Source of the DNA: a bacterium
GTDB taxonomy: Bacteria > Thermosulfidibacterota > Thermosulfidibacteria > Thermosulfidibacterales > JALWSI01
Direction of reading: 5' to 3'
Length of the DNA stretch: 7,700 nt
Assembly (NCBI GenBank): GCA_027080315.1
Contig: JALWSI010000062.1
Coordinates: forward strand, 1-7,700
Under the pieces are notes generated by a model that was not told where the DNA came from, ran no database searches, and worked only from the letters and a program-made list of their open reading frames with translations. The number at the start of each line of letters is the position of its first letter. Position 1 is the first letter of the stretch. This document shows, in pieces, positions 1-7,700 of this stretch. The translations under genes and the position numbers were made by a program.

Positions 1-588
1 GGCTACGGCAGCGGTGCCCAGGCGCTGCTCTTCAGGGTTGAAGAGCCCATAGAGGACCACCCCCAAAACGGCTGGCAGAACGCCATAAACAGAAGGGCAG
101 AGCTCTCTTACGAAAGGTACCTCGCCTTCAAAAGATTGGTTCCTTTGGAGCTGGGCATCAGGGGAGAAGAGGTGGCACCCACCGCCATATCTGCAAACTG
201 GAGAGACAGAAAGGCCATACTGGGGCTTGTGGGCTCAAGATGCACAGAGTGTGGCACTCCAGTCTATCCACCCCAGAAGATCTGTGTGAATCCCCAGTGC
301 AAGGCCATTGGCAAGATGGAGGAGTATCCCTTTGCCGAGAGAAAAGGACACCTCTTCACCTACACCGCTGATAATCTGGCCTTCACCTGGGATCCTCCAG
401 CCCTTTACGGGATTGTGGATTTTGAGGGGGGCGGCAGATACTGGTTTGATCTAACCGACTGCTCTCTGGAGGACCTGAAGGTGGGAATGGAGGTGAAGAT
501 GACCTTCAGAAGGAAGTACACAGACGAAAACCGTTCAATCTTTGGCTACTTCTGGAAAGCCATGCCTGTGTTGAAAGGGGGTGAATAA
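1..588 (+). CDS. HMG-CoA synthase-like / DUF35 (zinc-ribbon OB-fold) fusion protein, 3' part only
   Basis: The reading frame is open from the first base, so this is the last 195 residues of a longer protein. A TTG at 136 is in frame but is internal, not the start. Visible residues 1-13 (GYGSGAQALLFRV) resemble the C-terminal strand of HMG-CoA synthase/KAS III-type condensing enzymes. After a linker with RxxxSYERYLxFKRL there is a DUF35 module: a rubredoxin-like zinc ribbon with Cys81-x2-Cys84 and Cys95-x4-Cys100, then a beta-rich OB-fold (about 110-195, with FTYT, YGIVDFEGGGRYWFDLTD and VGMEVKMTFRR). In known families DUF35 proteins bind CoA ligands and scaffold thiolases (BbsA with BbsB; archaeal DUF35 with thiolase and HMG-CoA synthase). 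Its TAA overlaps the thiolase ATG by one base, implying translational coupling and probably a physical complex. The catalytic half lies outside the window, so its activity is inferred. An alternative is a KAS III-like enzyme of another specificity. Confidence 0.8.
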   Translation, partial: GYGSGAQALLFRVEEPIEDHPQNGWQNAINRRAELSYERYLAFKRLVPLELGIRGEEVAPTAISANWRDRKAILGLVGSRCTECGTPVYPPQKICVNPQCKAIGKMEEYPFAERKGHLFTYTADNLAFTWDPPALYGIVDFEGGGRYWFDLTDCSLEDLKVGMEVKMTFRRKYTDENRSIFGYFWKAMPVLKGGE

Positions 589-1784
589 TGGCAACGGGAA
601 TAAGAGATAAGGTGGCCATTGTGGGCATGGGATGCACCAGGTTTGGAGAGCTGTGGGAGAAGAGCGCAGAGGACCTCATGGTTGAGGTGTTCACAGAGGC
701 CCTTGAAGATGCAGGGGTTGAGCCAAAGGATATCCAGGCAGCCTGGCTTGCCACCTGCTACGACGAGATCAACATCGGAAAGAGCGCCATGTCTCTCTCC
801 ACAACCTTAAAGTTTCCCTTTATCCCCGTCACCAGGGTAGAGAACCTATGCGCCTCGGGCACTGAGGCCTTCAGAGCCGCATGCTACGCTGTGGCATCTG
901 GGGCCTACGACATGGTGCTGGCCTTAGGAGTGGAGAAGCTGAAAGACACCGGTTATGGCGGGCTTCCAGAGTTGTCCTTCACCTTTGGCACCAGAAACAG
1001 GGTGATCTTTCCCAATGTCACAGCCCCTGGTGCCTTTGCCATGATGGCCACAAGGTACTTTGACACCTACGGCATAGACCCTGAAGAGGGTAAGAAGGCC
1101 ATGGCCCGGGTCTCTGTTAAGAGCCACCACAACGGGGCTCTGAATCCCAAGGCGCATTTGAGAAGGGAGATCACCGTTGAGGATGTGTTGAAGGCTCCCA
1201 TCATCGCCTGGCCCTTGGGTCTTTACGACTGCTGCGGGGTGAGTGACGGGGCTGCAGCTGCCATAATCACCACCCCAGAGATTGCCAAGGGATTACGACC
1301 GGATCCCGTTAAGGTGAAGGCCCTTCAGGTGGCTGTCACCTCGGGAGAAGAGCTAATGTACCAGGAATGGGATGGAACACACGTGGAGTCCACGGTGCAA
1401 GCCGCCAACAAAGCGTATCAGGAGGCTGGGGTGAAGAATCCCCGGGAGGAGATCGGAATAATGGAGCTTCACGACTGCTTCTCCATCACTGAGCTGGTCA
1501 CCTACGAAGACCTGGGCATCTCCCCCCGGGGCAGGGCCTGGGAGGATGTGAACAACGGATTCTTTGATCTTGACGGCCAGATTCCGTGCCAGACCGATGG
1601 GGGGCTCAAGTGTTTTGGTCATCCCATTGGGGCCTCGGGGCTGCGCATGATGTACGAGGTGTACAAACAGCTGCAAGGAAAGGCAGGGGAGAGGCAGGTG
1701 AAGGACCCCAAGCTGGGACTCACCCACAACTTAGGAGGGTTTCCTCCCCACAGCGTGGTGAGTGTGGCCATAGTGGGGAGATGA
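588..1784 (+). CDS. SCP-x/BbsB-type thiolase (acetyl-CoA acyltransferase-like)
   Basis: 398 residues, normal for the SCP-x-like thiolase subfamily that pairs with DUF35 proteins. Thiolases cleave a 3-oxoacyl-CoA with CoA, or run the reverse condensation, in the cytoplasm. Visible landmarks are the nucleophile Cys88 in ENLCASGTEAF, the HDCFS motif at 295-299 (canonical thiolases have NEAF here), and His345 in GGLKCFGHPIGASG. The C-terminal motif is HNLGG (380-384), so the second catalytic Cys of classical CxG thiolases is not at its usual place, as in other members of this subfamily. Start: the ATG at 588 shares its A with the previous TAA (TAATG), with AGGGGG at 576-581 as ribosome site. The neighbouring DUF35 fusion is probably its partner. 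BbsB (benzoylsuccinyl-CoA thiolase) is a plausible relative, but the substrate is unknown. Arginine codons are mostly AGA/AGG (12 of 17). Confidence 0.9.
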   Translation: MATGIRDKVAIVGMGCTRFGELWEKSAEDLMVEVFTEALEDAGVEPKDIQAAWLATCYDEINIGKSAMSLSTTLKFPFIPVTRVENLCASGTEAFRAACYAVASGAYDMVLALGVEKLKDTGYGGLPELSFTFGTRNRVIFPNVTAPGAFAMMATRYFDTYGIDPEEGKKAMARVSVKSHHNGALNPKAHLRREITVEDVLKAPIIAWPLGLYDCCGVSDGAAAAIITTPEIAKGLRPDPVKVKALQVAVTSGEELMYQEWDGTHVESTVQAANKAYQEAGVKNPREEIGIMELHDCFSITELVTYEDLGISPRGRAWEDVNNGFFDLDGQIPCQTDGGLKCFGHPIGASGLRMMYEVYKQLQGKAGERQVKDPKLGLTHNLGGFPPHSVVSVAIVGR

Positions 1785-1806: not shown

Positions 1807-3102
1807 ATGCTTGATGCCAAGGCACTGGAGATAATGGCTAAAAAAGAAGCCCTTAAAGGCGTAAGGGTGTTGGACATCACCAGAATCATCTATGGCCCTT
1901 GGGCCGCCACACTGATGGCTGTTATGGGAGCCGAGGTGATCCACGTGGAGATTCCCGGCTCTGGAGATCTTTTGATCAGAGGGGTCTCTCCCGGGGGTGT
2001 TTTTCCCAGAGGCCTATCACCGGGAATGATGTGCTGCAACGCAAACAAGTACTACCTGGCTGTGGACATGCACAAGGAGGAGGGGCTCAAGATCATCAAA
2101 GAGCTTGCTGCCCAATCCGATGTGGTTATGGAGAACTTCAAACCGGGCACCTTTGACAAATGGGGCATCGGATATCGCCAATTGAAAGAGATCAACCCCG
2201 AGATAATCTACGTGAGCATGCAGGGTTTTGGTAACTGGGGACCCTACTGGACTCGCCCCAGCTACGACGCCTATGCCCAGGGCATCACCGGACTTGCAGA
2301 GATCAGTGGATTTCCAGACGGGCTGGCGGTGAAGGCCCAGACCTGGATTGGAGACTTCCTTTCAGGCACCCTTGCCGCCTTCTACACCCTTTCGGCCTTG
2401 AGGCACAGAAAGAGAACCGGAGAAGGACAGTTCATAGACCTCTCACAGGCCGAAGTTCTCTTAAGGGCAATGGACTGGACCTGGCTATACCAGGCTATAA
2501 CCGGAGAGGGGAGAAAGAGAACCGGAAACTGGGATCCTGCAGTGGTTCCATCCCTTATTGCCAGAACAAAGGACGGCTTTGTTGCTATTGGAGCCTTTCC
2601 TGAAAAGGAGTTCAAGGGCCTCTGTCAGGCCATGAACCGGGAGGATCTATTCCAGGAGTTCAGGGAGGTAGAGAAGAGACAAAAGGAGTACGAGAAGGTT
2701 TACAAACCCATAGACGAATGGGCTGCAGATATGACCACCCAAGAGATTCTGGAGCTCTCCAAAAAGCACGGGTTTGCAGCAGCACCTGTAAACAACTCCG
2801 AGACCATCCACAAAAGCCCCCACTTCAACGAGAGAAAGATGGTATGGAAGTTCATGGATCCCTTGTGGGGAGATCTGGCCTATCCCCGTCCTTGGCACCT
2901 TTCAGAGACCCCGGGAAGGGTCCGCTGGTCTATGAGGCCTGTGGGATTTGACAACGAACACGTTATGACCCGGATCCTTGGATACACCGAGGGTGAGGTG
3001 GAGGAGCTTTACAACAAAGGCGTTCTGGGCAAGTGGAACGAGAACTTCCCAGCCACTGCTCCTCCTGCAGATTGGGACGGCAAAAAGGGACTCTTCTATT
3101 GA
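1807..3102 (+). CDS. Type III (CaiB/BaiF family) CoA-transferase, subunit with catalytic Asp
   Basis: 431 residues, near the usual 380-430 of the family. Enzymes of this family move CoA from a donor thioester such as succinyl-CoA to a carboxylic acid through an aspartyl-CoA intermediate. Visible motifs are LKGVRVLDITR near the N-terminus (17-26), GAEVIHVEIPGSGD (41-54), NANKYYLAVD (78-87), DVVMENFKPG (105-114), and the catalytic region WIGDFLSGTLAAF, where Asp183 (codon 2353-2355) aligns with the nucleophile Asp169 of formyl-CoA transferase. GEGQFIDLSQAE follows. The residues after about 410 form a tail absent from the downstream paralogue. Start: ATG 1807 is preceded by GAGGAGGAA at 1795-1803; an in-frame ATG at 1834 has a weaker site. 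It lies 22 bp after the thiolase and 19 bp before a paralogous transferase, an arrangement like bbsE/bbsF (succinyl-CoA:benzylsuccinate CoA-transferase). The acid it activates is unknown. Confidence 0.9.
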   Translation: MLDAKALEIMAKKEALKGVRVLDITRIIYGPWAATLMAVMGAEVIHVEIPGSGDLLIRGVSPGGVFPRGLSPGMMCCNANKYYLAVDMHKEEGLKIIKELAAQSDVVMENFKPGTFDKWGIGYRQLKEINPEIIYVSMQGFGNWGPYWTRPSYDAYAQGITGLAEISGFPDGLAVKAQTWIGDFLSGTLAAFYTLSALRHRKRTGEGQFIDLSQAEVLLRAMDWTWLYQAITGEGRKRTGNWDPAVVPSLIARTKDGFVAIGAFPEKEFKGLCQAMNREDLFQEFREVEKRQKEYEKVYKPIDEWAADMTTQEILELSKKHGFAAAPVNNSETIHKSPHFNERKMVWKFMDPLWGDLAYPRPWHLSETPGRVRWSMRPVGFDNEHVMTRILGYTEGEVEELYNKGVLGKWNENFPATAPPADWDGKKGLFY

Positions 3103-3121: not shown

Positions 3122-4438
3122 ATGGAGACTTATGAGTGGGCTGAATGGGCCCGTTTAAATACAGAACCCGACACGGCCAAAGGAAAGGCCAAGGCCCTTG
3201 ACGGAATCACGGTATTGGACCTCAGTTACGGAAGCTTCGCAGGCCTGTTTGCCTCTTCCCTCATGGCAGAAATGGGAGCAAAGGTGATACGGATAGAGCC
3301 CCCTGAGGGAGATATCTCCCGAAAGATGACCCCCGAGGCCATGAAGGTTAAGGACACAGGCCTTGCCTACATAGTGGAGGGACGCAACAAGTACCACATC
3401 ACCCTTGATATTACTTCTCAGGAAGGAAAGAACATATTCCTTAAACTCGTACCCAAAACCCAGGTGATAATAGAAACATTTCCTCCCAAATACATGGAGA
3501 AGCTTGGGCTGGGATGGGATGTTCTAAAAGATAAAAACCCCTCTCTGGTCTATTGCGCCATCAACAGCTGGGGACAAGATGGGCCCTCTGTAGAGGATGG
3601 AATGGGGCAAGAGTCTCTGGATTACGATGTTGTGGCACAGGCTCTTGGTGGATTTGCATGGACTGTTGGCCTGCCAGAGGACTACACAGAGTTCCCGGAG
3701 CACACCAGGGTGCCAACCCGCATGGGCAACTGGATGGGCTGGTATGTTGGAGGAGCAATGGCTGCATTCTCGGTGATGTCTGCCATTCTCTTCGCCGAGG
3801 CAACGGGAGAGGGGCAGTTCATTGACATAAGCCCTGCAGAAGCCCTCGCTTCTGTAAACAACTACGCCTTCCATCTCTATCATCTAACGGGCATGGTTAT
3901 TGGCCGGGTGGCAAACTTTGAACCCGCGGCTTACGCCTACAACTACGTTCAGGCCAAAGACGGTATGGTCTTTCTGGCGGGCTACGCCGATCCCAATTGG
4001 GAGGCGCTCTGTTCCATAATAGGCAGACCCGATCTTGTGGAGAAGTATCCCACGCTAAAAGACAGAACCAACCCCAAAAACTTCGTGCCCATGACCCAAG
4101 AGATAGAGAAGTTCACCAAGCAACACACGAGAGAAGAGATTCTGAAGATATGGCTTGACTACAAAGGACCAGGGGTAACGGTGGCTGGAGAGATCTTGAA
4201 GCCTTTGGAGTCCATGGAGCTGGAGCACTGGTACGACAGAAAGGCTTTGATGAAGGTGAAGGACAGAGACTACGGTGAGGTTCTGATTCAGGGGCCCATA
4301 TCCAAAATGAGTGGCACCCCTCCTGAGGTGAAGTGGGTGTGTCGTCCAGTAGGAGCCGATAACAGACTAATATACTTGGACCTTCTTGGCTACGACGAAG
4401 AGGAACTTGATAAACTCAAAGGCAAAGGAGTGGTGTGA
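3122..4438 (+). CDS. Type III (CaiB/BaiF family) CoA-transferase paralogue lacking the catalytic Asp
   Basis: 438 residues from the ATG at 3122. Family features are clear: LDGITVLDLS (26-35), GAKVIRIEPPEGD (52-64), GRNKYHITLD (87-96), QVIIETFPP (114-122), TGEGQFIDISPAE (228-240), and a C-terminal RPVGADN...LLGYDEEELDKLKGKGVV that closely parallels RPVGFDN...ILGYTEGEVEELYNKGVL of the upstream transferase. The two are clearly paralogues. Aligning the catalytic segment (GWYVGGAMAAF against GDFLSGTLAAF) puts Trp207 (codon 3740-3742) where the nucleophilic Asp should be, and no other Asp is nearby. The N-terminal GP of the family (RIIYGPWA upstream) is AG here (SFAGLFA). It is therefore probably a non-catalytic or structural/substrate-binding partner in a heteromer with the upstream protein. 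A pseudoenzyme or a protein using another residue is also possible. The gene looks intact and well translated, not decayed. Confidence 0.88.
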   Translation: METYEWAEWARLNTEPDTAKGKAKALDGITVLDLSYGSFAGLFASSLMAEMGAKVIRIEPPEGDISRKMTPEAMKVKDTGLAYIVEGRNKYHITLDITSQEGKNIFLKLVPKTQVIIETFPPKYMEKLGLGWDVLKDKNPSLVYCAINSWGQDGPSVEDGMGQESLDYDVVAQALGGFAWTVGLPEDYTEFPEHTRVPTRMGNWMGWYVGGAMAAFSVMSAILFAEATGEGQFIDISPAEALASVNNYAFHLYHLTGMVIGRVANFEPAAYAYNYVQAKDGMVFLAGYADPNWEALCSIIGRPDLVEKYPTLKDRTNPKNFVPMTQEIEKFTKQHTREEILKIWLDYKGPGVTVAGEILKPLESMELEHWYDRKALMKVKDRDYGEVLIQGPISKMSGTPPEVKWVCRPVGADNRLIYLDLLGYDEEELDKLKGKGVV

Positions 4439-4514: not shown

Positions 4515-5270
4515 ATGGCTGAAAAGATCCTGCTTGATTGGGGCGTGATGAGTTACCTCAGCGTAGGTGAGGGAGAAGAGACCATACTTTACATCCACGG
4601 TGCAGGAAACAGAAAAGAGGTCTGGCAAGAAGTGATGGAAAACCTAAGTGGGGTAAAACAGATAGCAATTGACTTACCCGGACATGGTGCCTCAAGCTGT
4701 AAATACGAAGAGTCAATAGAGGACTACGCCCTGAGAGTAGAGAAATTTATGGAGCACTTAAACTTAAGCGATGTTATTGTGGCGGGACACTCCATGGGTG
4801 GAGCAATAGCCATAAAGCTGCTCTCAATCTCCAGCAGGATCAAAGGAGCTGTGTTGATTGGAACAGGAGCTTTATTGCCTGTGAACCCCAAGCTTCTCAA
4901 CGGCCTTAAAGAGAACTTTTTAGAAACAGTGGACTACATGGTAAAATGGTGCTTTAGAAAGGGAGTGAGCATAGACCTCATAAAAAGGGGCAGAGAGCTA
5001 ATGGTTCAGGCGGGACAAGAGGTTCTGTACCGTGATCTTTACGCTTGTTCTCAGTATTCAGGGGTTGAGGACCTAAAGAAGAGCAAGGTACCGGCACTGG
5101 TGATCTGTGGTTCCTCAGATGTGATGACGCCACCATCCCTCTCAGAGGAGGTGAAGGAACTCTTAGAAAGGGGCGAGCTATCAATCATTCACAACGCAGG
5201 CCACATGGTCCAACTAGAAGAGCCCATGTTCGTCGCTGAGAAGATAAAAGTATGGCTTGAGACCCTCTAA
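4515..5270 (+). CDS. Alpha/beta-fold hydrolase (esterase/thioesterase or C-C/lactone hydrolase type)
   Basis: 251 residues, typical of single-domain alpha/beta hydrolases. It shows the oxyanion-hole loop YIHGAGN (27-32), DLPGHGAS (53-60), the nucleophile elbow GHSMGG with Ser93, Asp202 in GSSDVMTPP and His230 in NAGHMVQLEEP, so the Ser-Asp-His triad is complete. A short lid region lies around 120-180. There is no signal peptide, so it is presumably cytoplasmic. Start: ATG 4515 follows AAGGAGG at 4504-4509. It lies 76 bp after the CoA-transferases, past a hairpin, so it may be co-transcribed at a different level. Its codons look more AT-rich (more ATA, TTA, AAA) than those of the preceding genes, hinting at a different history. 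Families of this kind include enol-lactonases, meta-cleavage-product hydrolases and acyl-CoA thioesterases. Sequence alone does not decide, but in this context hydrolysis of a CoA thioester or a ring-cleavage product is plausible. Confidence 0.85.
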   Translation: MAEKILLDWGVMSYLSVGEGEETILYIHGAGNRKEVWQEVMENLSGVKQIAIDLPGHGASSCKYEESIEDYALRVEKFMEHLNLSDVIVAGHSMGGAIAIKLLSISSRIKGAVLIGTGALLPVNPKLLNGLKENFLETVDYMVKWCFRKGVSIDLIKRGRELMVQAGQEVLYRDLYACSQYSGVEDLKKSKVPALVICGSSDVMTPPSLSEEVKELLERGELSIIHNAGHMVQLEEPMFVAEKIKVWLETL

Positions 5271-5960: not shown

Positions 5961-7700
5961 CTATTTTGCCTCGTTGAAGGTAAAGCTGTATTTATCGCTG
6001 CTGCCCAAGATGCTGCTCAGATCATTGGGATCGCTAAGGGCACTCACCTGCCAGGTTACTGTGTAAGGCACAAGGCTGTTCCAGCCGGCCTTGTCAAGAA
6101 CAAAGTAGATGCCAGCAAGATCCCCTGCCTCAATTAGGCCGTTGGTGCCAGAAAGCACCACACTGGCCTCCATGGGCTTGTTGGTTCCGTCATCCAGTTT
6201 CAGCCACAGCAGATAGCCTTTGGCGTTCACAACCTTGTTCCAGGCAAAGACCACAAGGTAGTCGGCGGCATCAAAGTCGTTGTAGTTTATTGCGCTGTTG
6301 TCTTCGGGCCATACAAGGCCAATGGCGGGATTCTCACTGCCTCCACTGCCTGAACATGGGGGTATAACCACAGCCACGGTCTTGCTGGGTCGTGAATTGC
6401 CGTAGCTGGAATGCGTTTTGATGTAAAATTGATAGGTTCTGCCGCAGGGCAGGTTGTTGAAGGTGTAGCTTGTAGCTGTCCCCTCTTTCACCCACTTCCA
6501 CAACTGGTTTGCATAGGCGTTGTAGATGAGATACCCGTCTGCTCCTCTCACGGCATTCCAGCTCAGTTTAACACCTGCCACACAACCTGCGGCGCAGCCG
6601 CCCTCTACCGAAGCGGTGAGGCCGGTTGGAGCGCTGAGAAGCTGTGATGAGGATATTGGTAGGAATATTGCTTTGCAATCCTTGTCTCTGTCCATGGCTA
6701 TTTGGCAGGTTGGGTTATTACCACAGGCTGCACAGTCTCCTCCCCAGCCCGCAAATCGGAACCCGACACCTGCCGCTGCTATTAGTGTTACCTGCGTATT
6801 TCCATTGTAGGTTTCATTGCAGTCTCCAGGGCAATCTATACCTGCAGGGTTGCTGGTGACGGTGCCTGTACCCGTCACACTCACCTTTAATCGACTGGTG
6901 AAGTTTGCCGTACAGTCCTTGTTGCTGTCCATGGTTATTTGGCAGGTTGGGTTGTTACCACAGGCTGCACAGTCTCCTCCCCAGCCAATAAACTGGCTTC
7001 CATCCCCAGGTGTTGCGGTTAGAGTAACATCTGTTCCGTTGTCATAGTTTTCATTGCAGTCTCCAGGGCAATCTATACCTGCAGGGTTGCTGGTGACGGT
7101 GCCTGATCCTTTGGTTTGCACGGTAAGGGCGTGGGTGTTGCCTAAAAACTCGTCTGCTCCCATATCAACCACAGAAGCTCCGTCTCCGTCTCCGTCAATT
7201 ATGCGGTTGTCTCCCTCAAAGTCTGTTGCCGGCATATCCGGTGCATCATTGTTACCCATATCTACACAAGGGGAATTGGGTTGAATGTGAAAGTCGCCGT
7301 TGGGGGCATCGGCAAACTGAGGATCGGCTGATATGTTGCTGTCGTGGTAGTAGTTGTCTGTATTTGTAAGTATGAGGCAATCGGAATTTCCGTTAAAGTT
7401 ATCGCAACTGAAATCGTTGTTGTATATCTTCTCAGAACTGGTACTATTAGTAACCGACACATAAACATCATTACCGCTGTTGCCTGCATCGTTTTCCCAT
7501 AGTATGTTGTTGTAGAGGGTGAAGTTACCTGGGGAAAGCAATGTGTAGATACCGCCTCCAGAATTTCCCGACGCTGCGGTGTTGCTATAGAACGAGTTGT
7601 TCACAATATTTGCTGTGCCGTACCAAGGATAAACGTACATGCCCCCGCCCTCTTCGTCGGCTCTGTTCTCTGAGAAGGTGGAATCACTAACAATGATATC
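5961..7700 (-). CDS. Large modular surface/secreted protein (beta-helix, InlB-like repeats, FN3), 3' part only
   Basis: The frame is open from the window edge to the TAG at 5963-5961, giving 579 visible residues; the true start lies beyond 7700 and the ATG at 7640 is internal. Visible order is as follows. Residues 1 to about 125 are a right-handed beta-helix/Pmp-like stretch (STFSENRADEEGGGMY, NNSFYSNTAASGNSGGGIY, LYNNILWEND). Residues about 139-186 are a segment with NSPCVDMGN, DGDGDG and VDMGADEF, typical of the end of bacterial beta-helix proteins. Residues 192-349 are two 79-residue cysteine-rich InlB-like repeats. Residues about 356-448 are a fibronectin type III domain (APTGLTASV, LSWNAVRGADGYLIY, TYQFYIKT). 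Residues about 456-579 are a beta-rich Ig/FN-like terminal domain. No membrane anchor, LPXTG or PEP-CTERM tail is seen at the C-terminus, which ends TFNEAK. The protein is presumably exported by a signal at the unseen N-terminus and may act in adhesion or cell-surface display. It is convergent to, and probably unrelated to, the catabolic operon. Confidence 0.85.
   Translation of the reverse strand, partial: DIIVSDSTFSENRADEEGGGMYVYPWYGTANIVNNSFYSNTAASGNSGGGIYTLLSPGNFTLYNNILWENDAGNSGNDVYVSVTNSTSSEKIYNNDFSCDNFNGNSDCLILTNTDNYYHDSNISADPQFADAPNGDFHIQPNSPCVDMGNNDAPDMPATDFEGDNRIIDGDGDGASVVDMGADEFLGNTHALTVQTKGSGTVTSNPAGIDCPGDCNENYDNGTDVTLTATPGDGSQFIGWGGDCAACGNNPTCQITMDSNKDCTANFTSRLKVSVTGTGTVTSNPAGIDCPGDCNETYNGNTQVTLIAAAGVGFRFAGWGGDCAACGNNPTCQIAMDRDKDCKAIFLPISSSQLLSAPTGLTASVEGGCAAGCVAGVKLSWNAVRGADGYLIYNAYANQLWKWVKEGTATSYTFNNLPCGRTYQFYIKTHSSYGNSRPSKTVAVVIPPCSGSGGSENPAIGLVWPEDNSAINYNDFDAADYLVVFAWNKVVNAKGYLLWLKLDDGTNKPMEASVVLSGTNGLIEAGDLAGIYFVLDKAGWNSLVPYTVTWQVSALSDPNDLSSILGSSDKYSFTFNEAK
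6654..6890 (-). repeat. Second 237-bp repeat unit encoding a six-cysteine InlB-like module
   Basis: It encodes 79 residues from LKVSVTGTGTVTSNP to AIFLPI. Key elements are CPGDCNE, GWGGDC, ACGNNPTC and KDC, giving six cysteines. The pattern GxGTVTSNPxGIxC...F.GWGGDC...C.A.F matches divergent InlB B-repeat-like (bacterial beta-grasp) modules. It is in register with the neighbouring unit at an offset of exactly 237 bases. Confidence 0.8.
6891..7127 (-). repeat. First 237-bp repeat unit encoding a six-cysteine InlB-like module
   Basis: It encodes LTVQTKGSGTVTSNP to ANFTSR with the same six-cysteine layout as its neighbour. A 57-base block at 7049-7105 is identical to 6812-6868 in the other unit, and the GWGGDC-to-KDC part is also nearly identical, while the block between is clearly diverged. 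This indicates a tandem duplication with later partial homogenisation. Confidence 0.8.

Follow-up and report, generated by a model that had tools for sequence, protein, structure and literature searches.

A class III CoA-transferase gene pair with tryptophan in place of the catalytic aspartate in its second protein

Two adjacent genes in a bacterial contig encode class III CoA-transferase proteins, and we consider it probable that these are obligate subunits of one heteromeric enzyme with a single working aspartate site per Asp/Trp pair. The first protein keeps the catalytic aspartate, and the second carries a tryptophan at the same position. The stretch of DNA analysed here (the window, 7,700 nucleotides) is the whole of contig C62, from a host genome of 1.84 Mb that is 94% complete. 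The host phylum is represented by nine genomes, all of one order. The features of the window are listed in Table 1. On the large surface-type protein near the contig end, we notice two divergent InlB B-repeats, an fn3 domain and a choice-of-anchor Q-like stretch.

Table 1. Features of the window
Feature	Position	Strand	Remarks
DUF35/ChsH2-type zinc-ribbon and OB-fold partner protein	1..588	+	PF12172 and PF01796 over cut-off; 5' end lost at contig edge
Thiolase-superfamily gene	588..1784	+	NF004810 (PRK06157.1) 658.6 bits, cut-off 403; upstream, same gene run as the transferases
First (catalytic) class III CoA-transferase subunit, 431 aa	1807..3102	+	PF02515 E 7.7e-103
Asp183 codon GAC, nucleophile of the first subunit	2353-2355		
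C-terminal tail of the first subunit	3040-3102		
Second class III CoA-transferase subunit, 438 aa, without catalytic Asp	3122..4438	+	PF02515 E 4.1e-89
Trp207 codon TGG, catalytic-Asp position	3740-3742	+	Motif GNWMGWY
Alpha/beta hydrolase	4515..5270	+	PF00561 E 9e-26; downstream of the transferases
Large surface-type repeat protein	5961-7700	-	Runs off contig end

A tryptophan at the catalytic position of the second transferase

The reading frame of the second transferase is genuine: it opens at an ATG with a Shine-Dalgarno sequence (AGGGAGGTGG), 20 nt past the upstream stop codon, and closes with a TGA. Both proteins match PF02515, the class III (Frc/CaiB) family, over their full lengths and far over the cut-off, and the fold of the second protein agrees. 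Its single-chain AlphaFold model has a mean pLDDT of 83, with low values at about residues 180–200 and at 247–270. Comparison of this model with solved class III transferases, among them Frc/YfdW, YfdE, CaiB, SUGCT and mesaconyl-CoA transferase, gives Z scores of 29–34. By descent and fold, the second protein is a relative of the class III CoA-transferases.

The first-pass annotation of this DNA had aligned GDFLSGTLAAF with GWYVGGAMAAF and placed Trp207 at the position of the essential aspartate. The two segments start at residue 182 of the first protein and residue 206 of the second, and Asp183 pairs with Trp207. Multiple and profile alignments, which also included CaiB, agree with this placement, as Trp207 falls in the column of both Asp183 and Asp169 of E. 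coli formyl-CoA transferase (Frc). Judged by the Frc residue, the first protein has the catalytic aspartate and the second lacks it. The comparison with BbsE and BbsF, also proposed at that stage, shows the catalytic Asp178 in BbsF and Tyr171 at the same position of BbsE.

In the alignment with Frc and the first protein, we looked for an aspartate or glutamate that could replace the nucleophile in the second protein, and found none at the aligned position. The invariant acidic residue of the second protein nearest to Trp207 is its own Asp169, which aligns with Asp154 of the first protein and Glu140 of Frc. This residue is invariant in both subunits; because they have it in common, it is no substitute nucleophile, and we rejected it as a candidate.

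Asp/Trp pairs in bacteria and archaea

We scanned a single genome for each species, which gave 58 loci, and counted the complete adjacent pairs from these loci and from the host. The upstream gene encodes Asp and the downstream gene Trp, or rarely His, in 58 of 58 such pairs, a set that is biased because the Trp was part of one of the two patterns used in the scan. The pairs come from the host phylum, Syntrophobacteria and Archaeoglobales. In an alignment of 131 sequences, the catalytic column holds D 67 times, W 60 times, and H and Y twice each; the residue is W in 96% and H in 3% of the Trp-subunit set, and D in 100% of the upstream partners. Similarity searches that were independent of the Trp, covering the host phylum and a set of 30 genomes with an Archaeoglobus genome at its centre, gave the same division into Asp and non-Asp subunits. 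The latter search added more Archaeoglobales pairs, which combine an Asp partner, every time, with a second subunit bearing Tyr, Thr or Ser. A small His subgroup (L026, L027, L080 and L081) reads GNWMAHY in place of the Trp motif.

The host carries two further Asp/Trp pairs on contig C18 and one Asp/Asp pair on contig C194. The pairs on C18 (L017, 885-6287) are complete and lie back to back in the order D-W-D-W, an arrangement that recurs in several relatives (L056, L059, L062, L063 and L064).

The first-pass annotation had also held that the rest of the fold and the C-terminal motif are conserved between the two proteins. The folds match and both share RPVGxDN, but the Asp subunit adds a tail that is lacking in the Trp subunit. 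This tail (PPADWDGKKGLFY) has the consensus ...KW...PPxDWDGKxG[LI][FY]. It is present on most upstream Asp partners, including the C-termini of the Asp subunits on C18, and on none (0) of the downstream Trp partners. The tail may reach over the partner subunit.

Conservation and co-divergence of the two subunits

The second subunits with W, H, Y, T or S form a single branch (100/99) and their partners form another, and the internal topologies of the two largely match. Across 39 non-redundant pairs, the subunit distances correlate with r = 0.94, which 0 of 2000 permutations reached, and this co-divergence stems partly from the joint inheritance of adjacent genes.

The mean identity is 0.53 for the Trp subunit and 0.51 for the Asp subunit. 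As its conservation is no lower than that of its partner, we regard the Trp subunit as maintained and see no decay in it. One could suppose that the Trp gene results from an assembly error or is a duplicate in decay, as loss of a catalytic residue is the outcome that decay would give. However, the Trp stands in dozens of bacterial and archaeal genomes, in intact frames and with conservation equal to that of the partner. On the strength of this conservation we exclude a pseudogene or an assembly error, which we find hardly credible.

We compared the domains separately. In the small domain, identity is 0.512 for the Trp subunit against 0.489 for the Asp subunit, and the Rossmann domains give 0.577 against 0.554. 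Within the Trp subunit, the small domain does not stand out for its conservation against the Rossmann domain, and the expectation that it would was dropped. The conservation of that Rossmann domain exceeds what a merely dead site needs. It could mean that the pocket of the mirror site, with its conserved motifs GNWMGWY and ExRNKYH, binds a ligand, such as a CoA ester, a nucleotide or an acid, which regulates or feeds the Asp site. The invariant residues specific to the Trp subunit (Y83, E86, R88 and T94) speak for such a pocket as well, but they may instead serve folding or the dimer interface. Moreover, sister families have His, Tyr, Thr or Ser at the Trp position, which argues against one specific role common to all. 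The same variation bears on the first-pass suggestions that the Trp may occlude CoA or form part of a substrate pocket. We hold a ligand-binding mirror site to be rather unlikely. An account that combines a family separate from BbsEF, at least two independent losses of Asp, and a constrained Trp pocket serving as a second ligand-binding or regulatory site in the Asp-less subunit seems to us just as doubtful.

Other adjacent class III pairs bear on the origin of the Asp-less subunits. The host pair on C194 (L018, 816-3781) resembles the window pair in its adjacency and differs in keeping Asp in both subunits. Another pair of the C194 type, L137, is likewise adjacent and has Ser in one subunit. 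The AU test rejects a tree that joins this Ser subunit to the Trp clade (p 7e-124) and so rules the subunit out of a single origin of all Asp-less subunits. As the Ser subunit lies outside the Trp clade and represents a separate loss, Asp was lost at least twice. Grouping BbsE with the Trp clade, as one origin of Asp-less subunits would have it, is unrejected (AU p 0.21).

Comparison with BbsEF and homodimeric enzymes

The PDB entries 9FN0, 9FOL and 9FUN represent BbsEF, the succinyl-CoA:(R)-benzylsuccinate CoA-transferase of the toluene pathway, and the title of 9FOL names a D178-CoA adduct. BbsE and BbsF were taken from a true bbs cluster (L108, reached via the BbsB model) to retrieve the two PDB chains. 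Together with Tyr171 in BbsE, the adduct means that a one-Asp heteromeric class III enzyme is already established. In the open-access literature, we found neither a paper on the BbsEF structure nor one on Asp/Trp pairs.

The window pair resembles BbsEF in that its class III genes are neighbours, that only one of the two subunits has Asp, and that the cluster also contains genes for a DUF35 protein and a thiolase. In contrast, the Asp-less BbsE is encoded first, whereas the Asp subunit comes first in the window. BbsE has Tyr where the second subunit of the window has Trp, the Asp subunit of the window carries a C-terminal tail and BbsF does not, and the window has no BbsCD genes. The window proteins also sit on separate tree branches. 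They did not test as orthologues of BbsE and BbsF, and the closest solved structures are other family members rather than 9FN0. Sequence comparison identifies the Asp/Trp pairs as a widespread family separate from BbsEF.

A fumarate-addition role of the BbsEF type was considered and rejected. No glycyl-radical enzyme (PF02901) occurs in the host genome, at its 94% completeness, or in six sister genomes. The window thiolase scores 163 bits against the BbsB model NF053628, far under the cut-off of 750, and the BbsB family has no match across the host phylum.

In homodimeric class III transferases a single gene supplies all chains, each with its Asp, whereas the window encodes two products, one of them Asp-less. 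The two proteins might nevertheless form separate homodimers, the second with other chemistry in the same pathway, as an isomerase, a racemase or a binding protein; solved structures of the class III fold do include homodimeric transferases and alpha-methylacyl-CoA racemases. Against this stand the invariant adjacency of the genes, the co-divergence and the BbsEF precedent. In addition, a racemase would be expected to have its catalytic Asp156 (from a D156A entry), which we take to correspond in position to Frc Asp169, where the second protein lacks Asp. We regard separate homodimers as quite improbable, more so than a ligand-binding mirror site.

Proposed working of the one-site heteromer

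The first-pass annotation had suggested an asymmetric pair with one type of active site. The strict Asp/non-Asp division in bacteria and archaea, the adjacency, the co-divergence and the same design in BbsEF (9FN0/9FOL) support this suggestion; the assembly of the heteromer itself is what we infer. From sequence comparison and the likeness to BbsEF, we also infer a dead mirror site and the type of substrate discussed below.

We propose that the D and W subunits would form an interlocked heteromer. The working site would combine the Asp183-side Rossmann domain of the D subunit with the small domain of the W subunit, and acyl-aspartyl anhydride and aspartyl-CoA intermediates would arise at the Asp183 site only. 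Aspartyl intermediates would be impossible at the mirror site, which would hold Trp207. The Trp subunit may be retained because it helps the complex to assemble and gives the acid pocket at the working site its shape. A published paper (PMC9813914) is cited for the mechanism and in support of the one-site reading.

The enzyme would probably activate an organic acid by transferring CoA to it from a thioester such as succinyl-CoA. Its product may enter a beta-oxidation-like pathway, in which the DUF35/thiolase pair would perform the last step. The genes near the pairs in relatives encode ETF and thiolase, acyl-CoA dehydrogenase, AMP-ligases and branched-chain-type ABC transport, and these neighbours fit the import of an organic acid and its activation with CoA. 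In our neighbourhood comparison, for which ORF picking also took antisense ORFs, the neighbour genes differ between loci, so they point only weakly to the substrate, and we gave up assigning a function from them. In several Archaeoglobales loci (L031-L035 and L076), the pair adjoins a histone-deacetylase-fold gene and, in most, an AMP-ligase too. In the window, the alpha/beta hydrolase possibly belongs to the same operon as the transferase pair.

Discussion

The one-Asp principle is known from BbsEF, and the new part is an Asp/Trp family distinct from it. Among anaerobic and often thermophilic bacteria and archaea, many genomes hold several pairs of this kind. These are presumably annotated as two separate CoA-transferases, and a second protein without the nucleophile would mean one enzyme, not two. 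The Asp/Asp, Asp/Ser, Asp/Tyr, Asp/Thr, Asp/Trp and Asp/His pairs offer a natural series for studying the passage from a symmetric two-site enzyme to a one-site heteromer.
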